Positions 4,005-44,004 of a stretch of DNA of 64,000 nt are shown here, in pieces; the stretch's first letter is position 1; the number at the start of each line of letters is the position of its first letter. The DNA comes from Cellulophaga omnivescoria. Lineage in GTDB: Bacteria; Bacteroidota; Bacteroidia; Flavobacteriales; Flavobacteriaceae. The position numbers and the translations under genes were made by a program. Where the stretch lies: NCBI RefSeq assembly GCF_001999725.1, contig NZ_MDDP01000023.1, forward strand, positions 62,001-126,000, written 5' to 3'. The notes beneath the pieces are model-generated. The model was not told the origin of the DNA. It searched no databases and saw nothing but the letters and a program-made list of their open reading frames with translations.

Positions 4005-5360
4005 TTATTCATCGTCTTTGCTAGGTTCCATAACAAAATCTTCCATAAAGGCCGTGGTATAATTACCCGCCAAATAATCTGGATGATCCATTAATTGCCT
4101 ATGAAAAGGAATTGTAGTTTTTACACCTTCAATTACAAATTCATCTAAAGCACGTTTCATTTTATTAATAGCCTCTTCTCTGGTTTGTGCTGTTGTAATT
4201 AGCTTAGCTACCATAGAATCATAATAAGGAGGAATAGTATAACCGCTGTATACGTTTGTATCTAAACGCACACCGTGTCCGCCTGGTGTATGTAATGTAG
4301 TAATTTTTCCTGGAGAAGGTCTAAAATCATTTCTAGGATCCTCTGCATTAATTCTACATTCTATAGAGTGCAATTTAGGGTAGTAGTTTTTACCAGAAAT
4401 TGGCACACCACCAGCTACTAAAATTTGCTCACGTATTAAATCGTAATCTACTACTTGTTCTGTTATAGGATGCTCTACCTGTATTCTGGTATTCATCTCC
4501 ATAAAGTAAAAGTTACGGTGTTTATCTACTAGAAACTCAATTGTACCAGCACCTTCATACTTAATGTATTCTGCTGCCTTAACAGCTGCTGCTCCCATAT
4601 CATCACGCAGTTTATCGGTCATGAAAGGAGAAGGTGTTTCCTCTGTTAATTTTTGGTGACGTCTTTGTATAGAACAATCTCTTTCTGATAAGTGACACGC
4701 TTTACCATATTGGTCACCTACAACTTGTATTTCTATATGTCTAGGTTCTTCAATAAGTTTTTCCATATACATAGCACCGTTTCCAAAAGCAGCTGTAGCT
4801 TCTTGTACGGCACTCTCGTAAAGAGCTTCCATTTTATCTTCAGACCAAACAGCACGCATACCTTTACCACCACCACCAGCAGTTGCTTTAATCATAACAG
4901 GATATCCCATTTTTTTAGCAACTTTTTTAGCTTCAGCAACATCTTTAAGTAAACCGTCTGAGCCAGGTATTGTAGGTACACCAGCTTTTTTCATAGTTTC
5001 CCTAGCACTAGCTTTATCACCCATACGGTCTATATGCTCGCCAGAAGCACCTATAAACTTAATGTCATGTTCTGCACATATTTTAGAAAACTTAGAGTTT
5101 TCTGATAAAAACCCATAACCAGGGTGTATAGCATCTGCATTAGTAATTTCTGCTGCTGCTATAATATTTGGTATTTTTAAATAAGACTCGCTACTAGGAG
5201 CAGGACCAATACATACGGCCTCATCTGCAAACCTAACATGCAAACTCTCTTCATCTGCCTTAGAGTAAACCGCAACCGTTTTAATTCCCATTTCTTTACA
5301 GGTCCTAATTATACGCAGCGCAATTTCTCCCCTATTTGCAATAAGTATTTTTTTAAACAT
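4005..5360 (-). CDS. accC: Acetyl-CoA carboxylase, biotin carboxylase subunit
   Basis: The 451-residue protein has normal AccC length. It starts [17 protein letters not shown], the biotin carboxylase N-terminal fold. It then has an ATP-grasp glycine loop ([14 protein letters not shown], around residue 160) and the catalytic signature [13 protein letters not shown] near residue 290. It carboxylates the biotin on AccB using ATP and bicarbonate, the first half of malonyl-CoA synthesis. accB lies 66 bases upstream on the same strand and fabH before that, forming a fatty-acid initiation cluster. A strong terminator follows. The alternative, a subunit of propionyl- or pyruvate-type carboxylases, is less likely given the neighbours. 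Confidence 0.95.
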
Positions 5361-36104: not shown

Positions 36105-37313
36105 TTGAATTTTCCGCTATACATCGCTAAGCGATATGTACGCTCTAAAAGCAGTCAAAACGCTGTAAATATTATCAATTTTATTACTTTTTTAGTAATT
36201 GTTATTGGTTCTGCAGCGCTTTTTATTGTATTATCTGGCTTTGCCGGATTAAAAACGTACAGCCTTAGCTTTAGTGAAAGTTTTGATCCAGATTTAAAAG
36301 CTTCTCCATTAACAGGAAAATTTATATCGGTTTTACCAGAACAAGAAACCAAATTACAAAATATAGACGGTGTACTTTCTTTTTCTAAAGAACTAGAAGA
36401 AAAGGTATACTTTTTACATAACGAGAAAAGCCATATTGGCTATATTAAAGGTGTAGATAGTAACTACAATAAAGTTACTAGCATAGATAGTACTTTGTAT
36501 TTTGGCGAGTGGTTATTAGACCACCAAAGAGGTGTAGTTGGTATTGGTATTGCTAATTTACTAGGCTTAACAGTTAATAATTTCAGAAGTCCACTACAAA
36601 TATTAGTGCCAAAACCAAAAAAAGGTGCGGTTAACCAAGGCGGATTTAATAAAACACCATACAACCAGCACAATGTTGTAGTTAGTGGTATGTATAATGT
36701 AGCAGAGGACCTAGATAAAAAATACCTTTTTACAAGTTTGCCTGTAGTACAAAAACTATTAGAAAAAGATAGTTTACAGGTTTCTGCTATAAATTTTAAA
36801 ATTGATGACGCTAAAGATATTAACAGTATTAAAAAAGAAATTGCCGTTGTTTTTAACCAAAAGATAGTTTTAAAAGATAGGCAAGAGCAAAATAGCACGC
36901 TACACCGTATGTTAAACACTGAAAACTTGGCTACTTACCTAATTTTTACGTTAGTACTTATAATAGCCTTATTTAATGTTGTAGGCGCTATTATTATGAT
37001 GATTTTAGACAAGCAACAAAACTCTAAAACACTTTACTACTTAGGCACAACTATAAAAGAATTACGAAAAATATACTTTATACAGGGTACACTTGTTACC
37101 AGTTTGGGTGGTTTGGTTGGTGTACTTATTGGCTCTATATTAATTGTTTCTCAACTAGCGTTTGGATGGCTTAAAATAAACGCATTTTTAGCCTATCCAG
37201 TAGAATACAAATTACTAAATGTTGTAATTGTATTAGCTACTATTATTGTACTAGGGTTAATATCTGCTAAAATTGCAAGTAGCAGAATAAGTAAAAAGCT
37301 TGTTACACAATAA
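36105..37313 (+). CDS. LolC/LolE-type ABC transporter permease (FtsX fold)
   Basis: The 402-residue protein starts with TTG at 36105 (MNFPLYIAKRYVRSKSSQNAVNI). There is no better ATG, and the N-terminus matches the family. The topology is one N-terminal helix (about 24-46), a large periplasmic domain (about 47-270) and three C-terminal helices (about 275-395). This is the LolC/E or MacB-like arrangement used in lipoprotein release. No ATPase gene is adjacent, so a LolD partner must be elsewhere. It is tightly linked to rbfA and convergent with dusB. Confidence 0.87.
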   Translation: MNFPLYIAKRYVRSKSSQNAVNIINFITFLVIVIGSAALFIVLSGFAGLKTYSLSFSESFDPDLKASPLTGKFISVLPEQETKLQNIDGVLSFSKELEEKVYFLHNEKSHIGYIKGVDSNYNKVTSIDSTLYFGEWLLDHQRGVVGIGIANLLGLTVNNFRSPLQILVPKPKKGAVNQGGFNKTPYNQHNVVVSGMYNVAEDLDKKYLFTSLPVVQKLLEKDSLQVSAINFKIDDAKDINSIKKEIAVVFNQKIVLKDRQEQNSTLHRMLNTENLATYLIFTLVLIIALFNVVGAIIMMILDKQQNSKTLYYLGTTIKELRKIYFIQGTLVTSLGGLVGVLIGSILIVSQLAFGWLKINAFLAYPVEYKLLNVVIVLATIIVLGLISAKIASSRISKKLVTQ

Positions 37314-37363
37314 ATAAGTAATACCTTAAGGTTTAGCGTTTTTGTGTAAGTAACACAAAGCCA

Positions 37364-38356
37364 TTAAGAAAACTGATGATCGCCAAATTTTTCTAAAACC
37401 TCATCAAAAGTAGCAAAAACATCTACAGAGTCATCACTAGTTACCATTTTCATACGGTATTGCTTAAAATCTGGTATGCCCTTAAAATAATTGGTATAAT
37501 GCCTACGGGTTTCAAAAACACCTAGTTTTTCTCCTTTCCAATCTATAGACATTTGTAAGTGCCTACGAGCGGCATCTACGCGCTCTTGCATTGTTGGTGG
37601 TGCTTTGTGTTCTCCTGTTTTTATAAAGTGTTTAACCTCATTAAAAAACCAAGGGTAGCCAATACTTGCCCGTCCAATCATTGCTCCGTCTAACCCGTAC
37701 TCATCTCTCATTTTTACAGCAGCTTCAGGAGAGTCTACATCACCATTACCAAAAACAGGAATATGCATACGTTGGTTATTTTTAACTTGTGCAATAGGTT
37801 TCCAGTCTGCATTACCTTTATACATTTGTACTCTGGTTCTGCCGTGTATTGCTATTGCTGCACAGCCTACATCTTGCAAACGTTCTGCAACCTCAACAAT
37901 TTTAATAGAATCTGCATCCCAACCCAAACGGGTTTTTACTGTAACAGGTAATTTGGTATGCTTTACCATTGCATCGGTAAGCTTAACCATTAAATCTATG
38001 TCTTTTAAGATACCCGCACCAGCACCTTTACTTACTACCTTTTTAACAGGGCAACCAAAGTTAATATCTATAATGTCTGGTTTAGATTTTTCTACAATCT
38101 CTACCGAGCGCAACATAGAATCTAAATTTGCTCCAAAAATTTGTATACCTACAGGTCGTTCTTTTTCATAAATATCTAATTTCATCACGCTTTTTGCAGC
38201 GTCACGTATTAAACCTTCTGATGAAATAAATTCTGTGTACACCACGTCTGCTCCTTGTTCTTTACACAAAGCTCTAAACGGTGGGTCACTTACATCTTCC
38301 ATTGGTGCTAGCAACAACGGAAAATCTGGTAGCTGTATGTCTCCTATTTTTGGCAT
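37364..38356 (-). CDS. dusB: tRNA-dihydrouridine synthase B
   Basis: The 330-residue TIM-barrel flavoprotein has LLAPMEDVSDPPFRALCKEQ near the start. The active-site loop IDINFGCPVKKVVSKGAGAG contains the catalytic Cys, IHGRTRVQMYKGNADW is the substrate region, and GNGDV and DGAMIGRASIGYPW bind FMN phosphate. It reduces uridines in the tRNA D-loop. A TAnnTTTG element ends 4 bases before its ATG. It is divergent from the Lgt-like gene with only 59 bases between start codons. Confidence 0.94.
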   Translation of the reverse strand: MPKIGDIQLPDFPLLLAPMEDVSDPPFRALCKEQGADVVYTEFISSEGLIRDAAKSVMKLDIYEKERPVGIQIFGANLDSMLRSVEIVEKSKPDIIDINFGCPVKKVVSKGAGAGILKDIDLMVKLTDAMVKHTKLPVTVKTRLGWDADSIKIVEVAERLQDVGCAAIAIHGRTRVQMYKGNADWKPIAQVKNNQRMHIPVFGNGDVDSPEAAVKMRDEYGLDGAMIGRASIGYPWFFNEVKHFIKTGEHKAPPTMQERVDAARRHLQMSIDWKGEKLGVFETRRHYTNYFKGIPDFKQYRMKMVTSDDSVDVFATFDEVLEKFGDHQFS

Positions 38357-38360
38357 TTGG

Positions 38361-38368
38361 CAAATTTA
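38361..38368 (-). promoter_or_regulatory. -7 promoter element directly before dusB start
   Basis: TAAATTTG on the minus strand matches TAnnTTTG exactly and lies 4 bases before the dusB ATG, predicting a leaderless mRNA. Confidence 0.5.
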
Positions 38369-38403
38369 CAACATATCCGTTACCTAAAAAACAGAAAACA
38401 TTC

Positions 38404-38411
38404 TATCTTAG
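38404..38411 (+). promoter_or_regulatory. Probable -7 element before the Lgt-like gene
   Basis: TATCTTAG (one mismatch to TAnnTTTG) ends 4 bases before ATG 38416. It mirrors the dusB element on the other strand of the same 59-base gap. Confidence 0.35.
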
Positions 38412-38415
38412 CCTT

Positions 38416-39189
38416 ATGCCATTACAATTTTTACTGCCTTATGAGCCTGTGGTTTTTGGTTACCACTTAAACGTGCACCTTATTTTAGAGTATTTGGCAT
38501 TTTTTATTGGCTTTAGGTATTATGTTATTTTACGTAAAAATAGCAACGATACCATTTCTAGCTTAAACCGTTTGTCTATACTAATTGGTGCTATTTTTGG
38601 CGCGCTATTTATGTCTAGACTTATTGGTTTTTTAGAAAATCCTCCGTTACACGCTACACAAGGTTTTATAGCAATTGTAAACAACAAAACTATAATGGGT
38701 GGTTTGTTTGGCGGTTTACTAGGTGTAGAAATTGCTAAAAAAATTATTGGAGAAAAAACATCTTCGGGAGATTTGTTTACACTACCCATAATTGTAGGTA
38801 TAATTATTGGCCGCATAGGCTGTTTTTTATCAGGTACAAAAGAGTTTACTTATGGTGTGCAAACCTCTTCTGTTTTTGGTTTAAATTTAGGAGATGGTGT
38901 CCTAAGGCACCCTGTTGCACTGTATGAAATTGTATTTTTAGTACTACTTTTTATCGCTCTAAAAACACATCAGAATAAAAAAATAAAGGTAGAAAACGGT
39001 AGTTATTTTAAGTTTTTTATGATAACGTATTTCTTTTATCGTTTCTGTATTGAGTTTTTAAAACCTAATGAGTTTCTAATATTAGGACTAAGTAGTATTC
39101 AATATTTATGCGTAATTTGTTTTTTATACTACTATAAATTCATTTTAAAAATACTCTTGTATGTCGCAAAAAAATTACACTTATTATGA
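38416..39189 (+). CDS. Lgt-like (prolipoprotein diacylglyceryl transferase-like) membrane protein lacking the HGGL histidine
   Basis: The chosen start is ATG 38416 (MPLQFLLPYEPVVFGYHLNV). A longer frame from 38281 lies over dusB and has no family match. The 257-residue protein has about seven transmembrane helices. It retains Lgt landmarks: GRIGCFLSGTKEFTYG where Lgt has GRxGNFxNxE, RHPVALYE, and YFFYRFCIEFLK. The motif equivalent to FHGGLIG reads LFGGLLG, so the His essential in E. coli Lgt (H103) is Phe. The GNF Asn is Cys. It may therefore use a different lipid or acceptor than lipoprotein Cys. It overlaps the radical SAM gene by 29 bases. Confidence 0.82.
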   Translation: MPLQFLLPYEPVVFGYHLNVHLILEYLAFFIGFRYYVILRKNSNDTISSLNRLSILIGAIFGALFMSRLIGFLENPPLHATQGFIAIVNNKTIMGGLFGGLLGVEIAKKIIGEKTSSGDLFTLPIIVGIIIGRIGCFLSGTKEFTYGVQTSSVFGLNLGDGVLRHPVALYEIVFLVLLFIALKTHQNKKIKVENGSYFKFFMITYFFYRFCIEFLKPNEFLILGLSSIQYLCVICFLYYYKFILKILLYVAKKLHLL

Positions 39190-40555
39190 TTTTACATTAA
39201 GCCTTTGCCCGGATTGTTTAAGGCGTGTAGATGCTAAAATTGTGTTTGAGAATGATAAGGTATATATGCTTAAAAACTGTAAAGAACACGGTAGGTCTAA
39301 GGTTTTAATTGCTGATGATATTGAGTATTATAAAAATATAAGAAACTACAACAAAGCGTCTGAATATCCTAAAACATTTAACACGCAAACGCATTATGGT
39401 TGCCCGTACGACTGTGGTTTGTGTCCGGATCATGAGCAACACTCTTGTTTAACTGTTGTAGAGGTTACAGACCGTTGCAACCTTACTTGCCCTACCTGCT
39501 ACGCAGGGTCTTCACCAACTTACGGAAGACACAGAACATTGGAGGAAATTAAAAAAATGTTAGATGTTATTGTAAGGAATGAAGGCGAGCCAGACGTGGT
39601 ACAAATTAGTGGTGGTGAGCCTACTATACATCCTAATTTTTTTGAAATTATGGATTATGCTAAGTCTTTACCTATTAGACATTTAATGGTTAATACAAAC
39701 GGAATTAAAATTGCTAAAGATGTTGCTTTTGCAGAAAAATTAGCAACATACGCACCAGATTTTGAAATTTATTTGCAGTTTGACTCTCTTGATAATACCG
39801 TACTACAAACACTTAGAGGGGCAGACCTTGCAGATACACGCTTAAAGGCCATAGAAAACCTTAACAAGTTAAACTTAGCTACAACTTTGGTTGTTACACT
39901 GCAAAAAGGGTTAAACGACCACGAAATGGGTAAAACCATAGATTTTGCTTTAAAACAAAAGTGTGTTAGAGGTGTTACTTTTCAGCCAACACAAATTGCT
40001 GGTAGATTAGAGAATTTTGAGGTTGATGAAAATAGAATTACACTTACAGAAGTACGCCGTAATATTTTAGAGCAGTCTCCTATTTTTGAACCAGATGATT
40101 TAATTCCGGTTCCTTGTAACCCAGATGCTTTGGTTATGGCTTATGCTTTAAAACTAGGTGATGAGGTTAGTCCGTTAACACGTTATATAAACCCAGATGA
40201 TTTACTAAACGAAGGTAAAAACACCATTATATATGAGCAAGATGAAGCTTTACACGGTAAAATGATAGAACTGTTTAGCACGGGAAACTCTGTAGATAAG
40301 GCCTCAGAAAATTTAAAATCTATTATGTGTTGTTTGCCAGAGATTGATGCGCCAGAACTAGGGTATGACAACCTTTTTAGAATAATAATTATGCAATTTA
40401 TAGATGCGCATAATTTTGATGTACGTGCAATAAAAAAATCTTGTGTACACATTGTAAATAAGGATTATAAAATTATCCCTTTTGAGACTATGAACCTCTT
40501 TTATAGAGATGATAAAATAGACCGACTTAAAGAACTACAAAAAGAAAACGCATGA
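39161..40555 (+). CDS. Radical SAM enzyme of the MJ0619/Tes-like (class D methyltransferase-like) group
   Basis: The 464-residue protein has the radical SAM motif C106-N-L-T-C110-P-T-C113. A cysteine set lies before it: C16 and C19 with C40 (zinc-like, LCPDC and KNCKEHG), and C81, C85, C88 and C96 in YGCPYDCGLCPDHEQHSC. ISGGEPTIHP and TNG motifs follow. The C-terminus has SIMCCLPEIDAPELG and KSCVHIVNKDYKIIPFETMN. This layout resembles MJ0619-type class D methyltransferases and archaeal tetraether synthase (Tes), which alkylate at unactivated carbons. I infer a C-methylation or C-C coupling on a lipid or cofactor. It overlaps its neighbours by 29 and 4 bases. Confidence 0.85.
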   Translation: MSQKNYTYYDFTLSLCPDCLRRVDAKIVFENDKVYMLKNCKEHGRSKVLIADDIEYYKNIRNYNKASEYPKTFNTQTHYGCPYDCGLCPDHEQHSCLTVVEVTDRCNLTCPTCYAGSSPTYGRHRTLEEIKKMLDVIVRNEGEPDVVQISGGEPTIHPNFFEIMDYAKSLPIRHLMVNTNGIKIAKDVAFAEKLATYAPDFEIYLQFDSLDNTVLQTLRGADLADTRLKAIENLNKLNLATTLVVTLQKGLNDHEMGKTIDFALKQKCVRGVTFQPTQIAGRLENFEVDENRITLTEVRRNILEQSPIFEPDDLIPVPCNPDALVMAYALKLGDEVSPLTRYINPDDLLNEGKNTIIYEQDEALHGKMIELFSTGNSVDKASENLKSIMCCLPEIDAPELGYDNLFRIIIMQFIDAHNFDVRAIKKSCVHIVNKDYKIIPFETMNLFYRDDKIDRLKELQKENA

Positions 40556-40767
40556 TACAGTTATTACCTTTAGAAGCTGGCAACCTTGATGGCTTGTTTA
40601 CACTAATATTATTAATAATGTTTGGTCCTGCGCTCTTATTTTTAATTATTGCTTTAATTATGCTAGGACAAAAAAAGAAAAAGGCTGCTAAAATATTTTT
40701 TATTTTAACCGGCCTTTACCTGCTTATAAGTCTGGGTATTTGCGGTGCAATGATTACAGGGTATTAA
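40552..40767 (+). CDS. Small two-helix membrane protein, copy 1
   Basis: The 71-residue protein starts at an ATGA overlap with the radical SAM stop codon, a sign of translational coupling. Two hydrophobic helices (about 14-38 and 47-69) are separated by a basic loop GQKKKKAAKIF. It has no signal peptide cleavage site or enzymatic motif. It is clearly related to the next gene (shared KKKxKxAKxxFIxxGxYL pattern). It is likely an accessory subunit of the Lgt-like/radical SAM unit. Confidence 0.75.
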   Translation: MIQLLPLEAGNLDGLFTLILLIMFGPALLFLIIALIMLGQKKKKAAKIFFILTGLYLLISLGICGAMITGY

Positions 40768-40780
40768 ATAAATAGTATAG

Positions 40781-41002
40781 ATGATAAATGCAATACTGTT
40801 AAATCAAAGTCCTAACGGCAGTGCTGATTACTTACTCCTTGTAATACTTGTTATTTTAGCGTTATTATCACCTGCAATAATTTGTATAACAGTTGGCTTA
40901 TTTTTACGTAAAAAGAAACCCAAAACAGCCAAAACACTTTTTATTATAGCGGGTATATACTTGGTTGTTGGTATTGGACTATGTAGCGTTCCTAGTTTTT
41001 AA
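40781..41002 (+). CDS. Small two-helix membrane protein, copy 2
   Basis: The 73-residue protein, 13 bases after its paralogue, has helices at about 17-42 and 52-70 around the loop LRKKKPKTAKTLF. The preserved pattern across both copies suggests that the pair arose by tandem duplication and that both are maintained. Function is unknown. A strong terminator follows, closing the four-gene unit. Confidence 0.72.
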   Translation: MINAILLNQSPNGSADYLLLVILVILALLSPAIICITVGLFLRKKKPKTAKTLFIIAGIYLVVGIGLCSVPSF

Positions 41003-41010
41003 ACATAAAA

Positions 41011-41042
41011 AAAGCGGAAATTCTTAATTGAATTTCCGCTTT
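41011..41042. terminator. Bidirectional terminator between the Lgt-like operon and the OmpA-family gene
   Basis: AAAGCGGAAATTC / GAATTTCCGCTTT is a 13-bp perfect inverted repeat with a 6-base loop, with A/T tracts on both sides of the stem. It serves both convergent transcripts. Confidence 0.85.
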
Positions 41043-41075
41043 AACAAATTTATAGTTGTTAGCTAGTGTTATTGC

Positions 41076-41906
41076 TTATTCATTAGAAGCCATTAATGCA
41101 AAAAACTTATCTATGTTAGGTAAGATTACAATACGTGTTCTTCTGTTTTTAGCTCTATCTTCTTTAGTGTCATTAGATGCTAAAGGAACATAACTACTTC
41201 TACCAGATGCAATTAATTTTTCTGGAGCTACATTATATTTAGTTTGTAATTTACGTACAATAGATGTTGCTCTTAATACACTTAAATCCCAGTTATCTGT
41301 TACTTTAGGAGTACTAATAGATCTGGAATCTGTGTGTCCTTCTACCATAACTTCAATACTTGGCTCAGAGTTAATAACGTCTGCTAATTTTTGTAAAATA
41401 GCATCTGCTTTGTTGCTTACATTGTAGCTAGCAGTGTTAAACAATAACTTATCAGAAATAGAAATCATAACAACTGTATCATCAATATCAATTGCAATAT
41501 CATCATCTTCATTTAAGCTATTTGTACCAATAGATTTTTTTAAGTTGTGAGACAATGCTAAGTTCATAGAATCTTTAAGTGTTTTTGCACCCATTAATTG
41601 TTCTGGACTAACATTTTTTAAAGTCTCGCGCATTTTAGCTTTAACGTTATTACTAATAACTGCACCATCTGCAGAAATTAATTTTGCATCGTTATCTTCT
41701 GTTAATGCGTTTATTTTAGAATTATAATCAGCAACTCTTGCTTCTATTTTAGCAAATTTAGCTTCTAACTCTTCCTTTTCTACTGCAGTCTTGGTTAATT
41801 GACTTTTAGTTTCACCGTGAGCCTGTTGTAATTCTACATATTTCTTTTTAGAAACACATGATCCCAATAAAACTACTGCAGCTAGTGCTAATGATATTTT
41901 CTTCAT
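41076..41906 (-). CDS. OmpA-family lipoprotein
   Basis: The 276-residue product has lipobox LLGSC (Cys17). Residues about 20-80 form a coiled coil. Residues about 145-270 form an OmpA peptidoglycan-binding domain with VEGHTDSRSI and DLSVLRATSIVRKL, including the conserved Asp and Arg for diaminopimelate binding. It anchors the outer membrane to peptidoglycan. It is a single gene. The region up to lepA (41907-42207, about 300 bases) holds only promoter sequence that I can recognise. Confidence 0.9.
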   Translation of the reverse strand: MKKISLALAAVVLLGSCVSKKKYVELQQAHGETKSQLTKTAVEKEELEAKFAKIEARVADYNSKINALTEDNDAKLISADGAVISNNVKAKMRETLKNVSPEQLMGAKTLKDSMNLALSHNLKKSIGTNSLNEDDDIAIDIDDTVVMISISDKLLFNTASYNVSNKADAILQKLADVINSEPSIEVMVEGHTDSRSISTPKVTDNWDLSVLRATSIVRKLQTKYNVAPEKLIASGRSSYVPLASNDTKEDRAKNRRTRIVILPNIDKFFALMASNE

Positions 41907-42179
41907 AATTTTTGTTTTGTTCTAAGGTAGATACGTGCATAAGATTGAATTAGATTTTTTATTTTAAAAATTATTATCTTAAACACTGATAATAAAGTAG
42001 TTAAAAAGTAATTTTTTTAACAAATGAAACCACTATATTTAAAAACATTACGTTAAAACAATATAAAAACAACATTAAAAAAGAAGAAGTTGCTTATTTT
42101 ATAAACCTTAGAAGTAAAAATTGTAATTAATTTTAGATGTGCTTTAAACTTAGACCCTTATAACCTGTAAAATATAAAC

Positions 42180-42187
42180 TATATTTG
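42180..42187 (+). promoter_or_regulatory. Bacteroidota -7 promoter element for lepA
   Basis: TATATTTG matches TAnnTTTG and ends 20 bases before the lepA ATG. The remaining part of the 41907-42207 gap shows no gene. Confidence 0.5.
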
Positions 42188-42207
42188 CAGCTACTTTAGT
42201 ACTACAT

Positions 42208-44004
42208 ATGAAGAATATTCGAAATTTTTGCATTATTGCACACATAGATCACGGTAAAAGTACCTTAGCAGATAGACTATTAGACTATACTGGTTCTGTA
42301 ACAGATCGTGAAAAACAAGATCAACTTTTAGATAGTATGGACTTGGAGCGAGAACGTGGTATTACCATAAAATCGCACGCCATACAAATGGACTTTGAAT
42401 ACAAAGGAGAAAAATTTATTTTAAATTTAATAGATACTCCTGGCCACGTAGATTTTAGTTACGAGGTGTCTAGATCTATTGCTGCTTGTGAAGGTGCTTT
42501 GTTAATTGTAGATGCTGCACAAAGTATACAAGCACAAACTATATCTAACTTATATCTTGCTTTAGAAAACGATTTAGAAATAATTCCGGTTCTTAATAAA
42601 GTAGATTTACCTAGTGCAAACCCAGAAGAAGTTACAGATGATATTGTAGAACTTTTAGGTTGTGCACCAGAAGACGTAATACACGCAAGTGGTAAAACAG
42701 GTTTTGGTGTAGATAATATTTTGGCCGCCGTAATAGAACGTATTCCTGCGCCAGTTGGTAATGTAGACGAACCTTTACAAGCCTTAGTGTTTGACTCTGT
42801 TTACAACCCTTTTAGAGGTGTAGAAACCTATTTTAGAGTTATTAATGGTGAAATAAAAAAGGGACAAAAAATAAAATTTGTTGCTACAGATAAAAGCTAC
42901 TTTGCAGATGAAGTTGGTACCTTAAAGCTAAACCAAGTTATTAAACAAAGTGTAAAAGCTGGTGATGTAGGGTATTTAATTACGGGTATTAAAGATGCTC
43001 GTGAAGTTAAAGTTGGTGATACCATTACAGACTCTGCAAACCCAACCAAAAATCCTATTGATGGTTTTGAGGATGTAAAACCTATGGTATTTGCTGGTAT
43101 TTATCCAGTAGATACAGATGAGTTTGAAGAATTGCGTTCTTCTATGGAAAAATTGCAACTAAATGATGCCTCTTTAGTATTTGCACCAGAAAGTAGTGCT
43201 GCACTTGGTTTTGGTTTCCGTTGTGGGTTTTTAGGAATGCTGCATATGGAGATTATACAAGAACGTTTGGAGCGCGAGTTTAATATGACCGTTATTACTA
43301 CGGTACCTAACGTTAGTTACCACGCGTTTACACGTAAAGACCCAGATACTCCTGTAATTGTTAATAACCCTACAGATTTACCAGACCCTTCTAGTATAGA
43401 CCGTGTAGAGGAACCATATATTAAGGCTACCATAATTACAAAATCAGACTTTGTTGGTAATGTAATGTCTTTATGTATAGAAAAACGAGGACAAATTACA
43501 AACCAAACGTATTTAACACCAGAGCGTGTAGAGCTGTCTTTTGATATGCCACTTGCTGAAATTGTTTTTGATTTTTATGACAGATTAAAGACGGTTTCTA
43601 AAGGATATGCTTCTTTTGATTATACACCAATTGGTATGCGTACCTCTAAATTAGTACGTGTAGATATTTTATTAAATGCACAACCAGTAGATGCCTTATC
43701 TGCCTTAATACACGCAGATAATGCCGTACATATTGGTAAAAAAATGTGTGAAAAATTAAAAGAATTAATTCCAAGACAACAGTTTGATATTCCTATACAA
43801 GCTGCCATTGGAGCAAAAATTATTTCTAGAGAAACTACAAAAGCATTACGTAAAGATGTTACTGCAAAATGTTACGGTGGTGATATATCTAGAAAACGTA
43901 AACTTTTAGAAAAACAGAAAAAAGGTAAAAAACGTATGCGCCAGGTTGGTAACGTAGAGGTACCACAAGAGGCGTTTATGGCAGTATTAAAACTTAACGA
44001 TTAA
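42208..44004 (+). CDS. lepA: Elongation factor 4 (back-translocating GTPase)
   Basis: The 598-residue protein has the family's normal length. GTPase motifs are AHIDHGKST (G1), RGITIKSHA (switch I), DTPGH (G3) and NKVDLPSA (G4). The C-terminal LepA-specific domain includes [22 protein letters not shown]-4 acts on stalled ribosomes and in initiation. It has its own promoter and a terminator shared with the convergent LytTR gene. Confidence 0.97.

Follow-up and report, generated by a model that had tools for sequence, protein, structure and literature searches.

A Conserved Cassette of an Lgt Paralogue, a Tes-like Radical SAM Enzyme and Small Membrane Proteins with a C-terminal Cysteine Motif

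In Cellulophaga omnivescoria, a member of the Flavobacteriaceae, four adjacent genes encode a diverged paralogue of the lipid transferase Lgt (Lgt2), a radical S-adenosyl methionine (SAM) enzyme related to the archaeal tetraether synthase Tes, and two small membrane proteins, sm1 and sm2. They lie in a window of 64,000 nucleotides (assembly GCF_001999725.1, contig NZ_MDDP01000023.1, positions 62,001 to 126,000), the whole stretch of DNA that was analyzed. The genes form a conserved cassette, its two enzymes co-occur across Bacteroidota, and its small proteins share a cysteine motif near the C-terminus. A role in tagging the small proteins with lipid is tentatively proposed below.

The Locus in Cellulophaga omnivescoria

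38416..39189, plus strand: lgt2, encoding an Lgt paralogue of 257 residues, a multi-helix membrane protein and predicted lipid transferase (Pfam LGT, AlphaFold2 model, alignment to 5azb)
39161..40555, plus strand: Tes/TrsS-type radical SAM enzyme of 464 residues (Pfam, NCBIfam and PDB matches, cysteine spacing)
40552..40767, plus strand: sm1, a small two-helix membrane protein of 71 residues with Cys64 (SLGIC-G) as proposed lipid acceptor (open reading frame (ORF), cysteine motif)
40781..41002, plus strand: sm2, an sm1 paralogue of 73 residues with Cys68 (GIGLC-S) as proposed second acceptor (ORF, cysteine motif)
41011..41042, minus strand: 13-pair hairpin with a T tail where two convergent units meet, no more than a boundary common to both (terminator scan)

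As an earlier note on this DNA had described, the four plus-strand genes at 38416-41002 are closely packed: the first two junctions overlap, by 29 and 4 bases, and 13 bases separate sm1 from sm2. Its family calls likewise hold: the first product is a relative of Lgt that passes the Pfam LGT cut-off at E 6.6e-21, the second belongs to the radical SAM enzymes of the MJ0619/Tes type (Radical_SAM, E 8.1e-27), with archaeal Tes as its closest sequence match among solved structures (E 7e-69), and the last two are paralogues with 31% identity.

Conservation within Bacteroidota

The organization of the cassette was compared in the best 80 of 249 relatives of the radical SAM enzyme, mostly from Flavobacteriaceae, a set that represents closest kin rather than a random draw and that holds some redundancy (L033 and L034 carry the same radical SAM enzyme, and those of two loci recur in a pair of genomes from the phylum sample described below). 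The order Lgt2, radical SAM enzyme, motif-bearing small protein is found in all 80 loci. The first two genes overlap by 29, 20 or 11 bases in 69 loci and are separated by a gap of at most 348 bases in 11, and the start of the small-protein gene overlaps the radical SAM stop by 4 bases in 43. Downstream of the radical SAM gene, motif-bearing small proteins are present in one copy in 53 loci, in two copies in 23 and in three copies in 4. The outer neighbors dus and lepA are often, though not always, close by.

Co-occurrence was assessed in a phylum sample of 296 genomes, with the radical SAM enzyme scored as present at E ≤ 1e-60 and Lgt2 identified by a 49-row profile at E ≤ 1e-25. Lgt2 was found in all 24 genomes positive for the radical SAM enzyme versus 3 of the 272 negative genomes (table 24/0/3/269; p 2e-32 by Fisher's test, which here as elsewhere takes no account of phylogeny). 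The co-occurrence that the earlier note had put forward as a check is thus neither limited to a few genomes nor lacking a conserved order. Within a single genus (g2), both genes are present in 6 genomes and neither in 11. At least two LGT-family matches occur in 24 of 24 positive genomes versus 43 of the 272 others, a count of matches in which fragments could be included.

The three genomes with Lgt2 outside the 24 represent different situations. In G096, a radical SAM gene missed at first was found beside the Lgt gene by profile search, bringing the number of Lgt2/radical SAM pairs to 25. G168 lacks a radical SAM match at E ≤ 1e-10, and in the tree its Lgt falls among the housekeeping copies. 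In G017, an Lgt2 on a long branch (L122:6653-7498) is accompanied by neither a radical SAM enzyme nor a small-protein match and may be a decaying remnant of a lost system. The two enzyme genes are clustered in 22 of the 24 positive genomes, as also in G096; as G034 and G268 hold both on different contigs, the pair can be kept without the genes being neighbors.

A small protein with a cysteine in its tail stands beside the radical SAM enzyme or Lgt2 in 24 of the 25 pairs, G034 being the exception. Arrangements vary. In the lineage f2, the small-protein gene sits between the two enzyme genes; in G212, a contig break falls inside the radical SAM gene, with three small-protein copies after the gene end on the other contig. 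In G121 (L107:8883-11088) and G156 (L108:4784-6941), the genes follow one another in the order radical SAM enzyme, ICMT-family methyltransferase, DUF4395 protein, Lgt2 and small protein, the ICMT and DUF4395 family calls having been made on G121. ICMT enzymes elsewhere methylate lipidated C-terminal cysteines, and the presence of such a gene in these two clusters would fit a lipidated cysteine.

Distribution beyond the Phylum

A plasmid collection searched at the protein level yielded ten records with relatives of the radical SAM enzyme, of which seven (all but H4, H6 and H10) were examined. A Persicobacter record carries the Bacteroidota form of the cassette. Three actinobacterial records, from Mycobacterium branderi, M. 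avium and Nonomuraea (the last 11.9 Mb long and evidently a chromosome), hold an Lgt and a radical SAM enzyme, with either one or two small proteins. The tails of these small proteins (SGGLCTG and TVGVCTG in M. branderi, TAGICTG and SAGYCTG in M. avium, SAGICTG in Nonomuraea) can be compared with SLGICG in sm1, and the actinobacterial form of the cassette is also present in G096 of the phylum sample, with the tail SGGMC. In M. vanbaalenii and two haloarchaea (L125:5968-8336, L129:5001-7164 and L146:3974-6084), the radical SAM relative adjoins a methyltransferase and no Lgt is listed in the region covered, so that pairing with Lgt2 marks some branches of the Tes relatives and not all of them.

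Two further observations concern the actinobacterial form. A related membrane protein (DPLRLCVY...), without a C-terminal cysteine, is encoded directly downstream of the radical SAM gene in both G096 (L123, approximately 4270-4600) and Nonomuraea (L127:6356-6787). On the M. branderi plasmid, an IS200/IS605 transposase and TnpB lie directly behind the cassette (L126:6734-8379), which may move between replicons.

The Small Proteins and Their C-terminal Cysteine

Most of the sequence of the small proteins is variable, as is their size (53 to 151 residues among those inspected, with a Nonomuraea protein of 368 residues that has a proline-rich front). Nearly all share a common end: a loop rich in lysine and arginine leads into the final hydrophobic helix, after which comes a cysteine, mostly in the context [SG]-x-G-x-C. 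Counts were made on 141 distinct cassette ORFs taken without selection, or on 136 after removal of five gene fragments or spurious ORFs (one each in L018, L108 and L109 and two in L107), and on a background set from these loci, 197 further multi-helix ORFs that were mechanically called rather than curated; small proteins found by eye (those of G121, G156, G096, G212, M. branderi, M. avium, Nonomuraea and Persicobacter) stand outside these counts. A cysteine within the last 22 residues is present in 136 of the 141 cassette ORFs (134 of 136 without the fragments) versus 21 of 197 in the background, and the shorter motif G-x-C in 126 of 141 (124 of 136) versus 6 of 197. Among the 56 background ORFs of at most 140 residues, the corresponding numbers are 11 and 5. 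The two members of the 136-ORF set without the terminal cysteine are an L024 copy with the motif further in and an L067 copy with a change from cysteine to tryptophan. A 73-row alignment has a single invariant column, which is partly the product of selection, as its rows were drawn from ORFs with a cysteine in the last 22 residues.

The last lysine or arginine precedes the cysteine by 17 residues in 108 of 132 proteins with [GSY]-x-C, and the mean hydropathy is 2.46. Position -2 is glycine in 123 of 134 proteins; position -1 is isoleucine, valine, threonine or leucine in 118, alanine or serine in 8, and never glycine; and the tail after the cysteine has 3-8 residues in 115. The succession of a positive region, a hydrophobic stretch and a cysteine is that of a lipobox, placed at the C-terminus instead of the N-terminus. 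Positively charged loops face the cytosol according to the positive-inside rule, by which the loop is predicted to be cytosolic and the cysteine to lie at the outer face of the membrane, the face at which a prolipoprotein offers its cysteine to Lgt. Signal peptidase II needs glycine, alanine or serine at position -1. Because the residue before the cysteine is none of these in 126 of 134 proteins, cleavage appears unlikely and a multi-helix proteolipid would probably remain.

A profile of the small proteins matched 18 of the 24 genomes positive for the radical SAM enzyme at E ≤ 1.1e-4, and 4 of the 272 others at 2.0e-4 to 5.2e-4. Assignment to a known family was considered and set aside: Pfam has no family for sm1, and similarity to DUF4064 is weak (27 of 73 rows, best E 3e-5).

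The Lgt Paralogue

Lgt2 is the second PF01790 copy in the C. omnivescoria genome, which also encodes a separate canonical Lgt (E 8.7e-56). It scores 75.2 bits against Pfam LGT (cut-off 24.9) and falls far below the NCBIfam Lgt equivalog cut-offs (35.8 versus 118.9 and 34.1 versus 334); a profile comparison of Lgt2 with canonical Lgt gave an alignment of the C-terminal half only. The sole PDB match of its AlphaFold2 model (predicted local distance difference test score, pLDDT, 89.7) at E ≤ 0.001 is Escherichia coli Lgt, 5azb (E 4.1e-5, probability 1.00, template modeling (TM) scores 0.51/0.47). Likeness to the E. coli enzyme (5azb/5azc) thus extends from the Pfam family to the fold, and further to a retained RHPxxLYE sequence and to equivalents of R143, E202, Y235, R239 and E243, which the alignment to 5azb places at R133, E171, Y205, R209 and E213. 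The equivalents of the two essential arginines, R143 and R239, and of Y235 are invariant in the 49 Lgt2 rows, the position of E243 is glutamate or aspartate in the rows inspected, and E. coli R246 is replaced by lysine.

Further differences, besides the partnership with a radical SAM enzyme, lie at other positions. H103 is replaced in C. omnivescoria Lgt2 by M93, Y26 by H21 and N146 by C136. The H103 position is methionine, valine, leucine, alanine or threonine in the Lgt2 rows inspected, versus histidine in 9, tyrosine in 7 and phenylalanine in 1 of the 17 housekeeping rows in the Lgt tree, and the Y26 position is histidine in at least 90% of the 49 Lgt2 rows. H103 of E. coli Lgt is described as essential (PMC4728403), but this position is tyrosine, tryptophan or phenylalanine in some species. 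PMC13251419 reports the Y26H and N146C changes for the second Lgt homologue of M. smegmatis, MSMEG_5408, and presumes a mycobacterial homologue of this kind to be low in Lgt activity. Both changes are also found by eye in the M. branderi Lgt. The comparison with MSMEG_5408 is limited by the occurrence of N146C alone in several housekeeping copies, for which reason N146C was dropped as a hallmark of Lgt2. Since H103 is replaced and a homologue with Y26H and N146C is presumed to have low Lgt activity, Lgt2 may be specialized for an acceptor other than that of the housekeeping enzyme.

That Lgt2 is simply a duplicated housekeeping Lgt was rejected in view of its key residues, the coexisting canonical copy and the Lgt tree, in which a branch with support 100/99 splits off the 17 housekeeping copies from the 25 rows partnered with a radical SAM enzyme, the orphan of G017 and one long-branched housekeeping row (2nd_G231). 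Alternatively, Lgt2 might now be some other lipid transferase or a hydrolase, and the small proteins might use their cysteine as a redox or metal site that serves the radical SAM enzyme or a membrane complex. The loss of H103 and the alterations at Y26 and N146 favor this reading. It sits poorly with the invariance of the R143, Y235 and R239 equivalents, with the acidic residue kept at the E243 position, and with the retention of at least one such cysteine in all 80 nearest loci, and is considered improbable.

The Radical SAM Enzyme

The N-terminus of the radical SAM enzyme matches the HMPTM N-terminal zinc ribbon of Pfam, a domain whose name is the only pointer to a pterin role. The best PDB match is Tes of Methanocaldococcus jannaschii (MJ0619, also called GDGT-MAS; 7tol/7tom), both by profile (2.7e-93) and by fold (1.7e-36, TM score 0.79), and the Tes-like fold spans nearly the whole length of the protein (model pLDDT 78.4). 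According to PMC9433317, Tes binds phospholipids and couples their tail ends. Residues C16-C19-C40-H43, C81-C85-C88 and C106-C110-C113 stand at the ligand spacing of the rubredoxin, N-auxiliary and RS clusters of Tes given in that source, and Met439, given there together with Tyr459 as fully conserved in Tes, is kept as M411. Tyr459 itself is replaced by I431, and C438 and C475 of Tes by I410 and E442. The C-terminal cysteines are others: the additional ones are C319, C390, C391 and C428, and all 17 Lgt2-partnered radical SAM enzymes compared retain C319 and C428.

The enzyme may well work like Tes, yet it is not assigned to Tes because it does not reach the NCBIfam Tes cut-off (291.5 bits, cut-off 450) and does not keep Tyr459; strict identity as a tetraether synthase was rejected on these grounds. 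The best NCBIfam match, TrsS (NF045646), is likewise under its cut-off (332.2 bits versus 490), and differs in context, relatives in M. vanbaalenii and on the two haloarchaeal plasmids being those found beside a methyltransferase. The tree of the radical SAM enzymes carries a warning of long branches meeting. Bacterial Tes homologues occur in organisms not known for biphytanyl chains, their reactions being left open in PMC9433317, and have been proposed in PMC8941075 to act in branched tetraether formation. A defense system was also considered and rejected, as PADLOC gave only viperin models on the radical SAM core (E 1e-13 and 1.6e-12) and none for the other three proteins.

Two further explanations turn on what this enzyme acts upon. 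Along the lines of the earlier note, the product of the cassette might be an unusual lipid that stays free in the membrane. The small proteins would then serve as subunits or scaffolds, and their cysteine would carry lipid transiently or have a structural function. The Tes-like fold over nearly the full length, the hydrophobic partners, the Lgt fold of a family that uses phosphatidylglycerol and the action of MJ0619 on lipids (PMC9433317) are all consistent with such a product. Each locus, however, has one to three diverging copies in which the context of the cysteine is fixed, as would suit substrates better than subunits, and the spacing from the charges to the cysteine equals the lipobox distance, so that this explanation is regarded as unlikely.

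Alternatively, in a maturation like that of ribosomally synthesized and post-translationally modified peptides, the radical SAM enzyme would modify the small protein (by a thioether or C–C cross-link, for example), Lgt2 would lipidate it, and a lipopeptide would be released. Small, variable and often multi-copy proteins do adjoin the radical SAM gene, with the frequent 4-base overlap (43 of 80 loci). These proteins are almost wholly hydrophobic, though, with the short tail after the cysteine in 115 of 134; no protease, exporter or leader was recognized among the neighbors inspected, in which no search was aimed at these; and the next different fold for the enzyme model, that of the best peptide maturase, follows only at 5.1e-10 versus 1.7e-36 for Tes. 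This maturation is regarded as quite unlikely.

A Proposed Mechanism and the Observations That Weigh against It

In the preferred explanation, lipidation of the small proteins, these would reside in the inner membrane with the lysine- and arginine-rich loop on the cytosolic side and the cysteine presented outside by the last helix in [SG]-x-G-x-C, a C-terminal version of the lipobox. Lgt2, with the two essential arginines kept and H103 gone, would transfer a diacylglyceryl-type lipid onto the cysteine, leaving the protein uncleaved. At the cytosolic face, the radical SAM enzyme would change the donor lipid in its acyl tails, where C–H activation or C–C coupling near the tail end, as in Tes, is the likeliest reaction, and the changed tails would give the protein an unusual anchor, the weakest step of the proposal. 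Lipidation of the C-terminal cysteine by Lgt2 is considered probable; alteration of the lipid donor by the radical SAM enzyme is possible, at slightly short of an even chance; and the two jointly, as a dedicated protein-lipidation cassette, are proposed more tentatively. A far-reaching form of the idea is a new type of protein lipidation, in which a dedicated Lgt would modify the C-terminal lipoboxes of multi-helix microproteins, using a lipid with tails coupled by the Tes-type radical SAM enzyme. The resulting anchor, membrane-spanning or cross-linked in another way, would be shared from Bacteroidota to Actinomycetota; this form is quite a long shot.

A number of observations speak against lipidation of the small proteins or complicate it. 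The radical SAM enzyme should be cytosolic, on the opposite side from the predicted position of the cysteine. The motif does not match the lipobox [LVI][ASTVI][GAS]C, a consensus with glycine, alanine or serine at -1 (PMC4728403). In G034 (L120, L109), no small protein with a C-terminal cysteine was found near Lgt2 or the radical SAM gene, and the acceptor may lie elsewhere in the genome. Some additional copies lack the motif (L056, L067 and ORFs in L048 and L051), and the small-protein profile missed 6 of the 24 positive genomes, in 5 of which copies were recovered by ORF scan or by eye. The DUF4064 similarity leaves another origin of the small proteins possible. To these are added the replacement of the essential H103 and the changes at Y26 and N146 in Lgt2, the loss of Tyr459, C438 and C475 in the radical SAM enzyme, and the poor modeling of its residues 370-400.

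The earlier note had proposed a unit for lipid modification in the inner membrane, which the present results support in part. The conserved unit and the lipid-enzyme families stand; the likely job of Lgt2 shifts from general lipid work to tagging small proteins, since the cysteine in the terminal helix, unnoticed before, is kept in two phyla. No description of lipid-tagging by a pair of Lgt and radical SAM enzymes was found in the open-access literature, subscription journals being mostly outside the search. The cassette is common to many marine bacteria and some actinobacteria; if the proposal is true, a second lipoprotein pathway is hidden in genomes already annotated, a substrate is provided for the diverged second Lgt genes of Bacteroidota, possibly also for those of mycobacteria, and one branch of the bacterial Tes relatives gains a role outside tetraether synthesis.

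Boundaries of the Transcription Unit

The boundaries claimed in the earlier note, a divergent promoter and a strong terminator, stand in part. The dus gene (37364-38356, minus strand) and lgt2 do diverge, with 59 bases between their starts, whereas the promoter signal is at the level of chance: sigma70-like matches in 37300-42300 number 21, versus a mean of 21.0 in shuffled sequence. The hairpin at 41011-41042 is likewise present, but the terminator-like call is on the minus strand only and not for the strand of the cassette, and a two-way role, though possible, was not called. On the minus strand, the hairpin would end the convergent OmpA-like gene.

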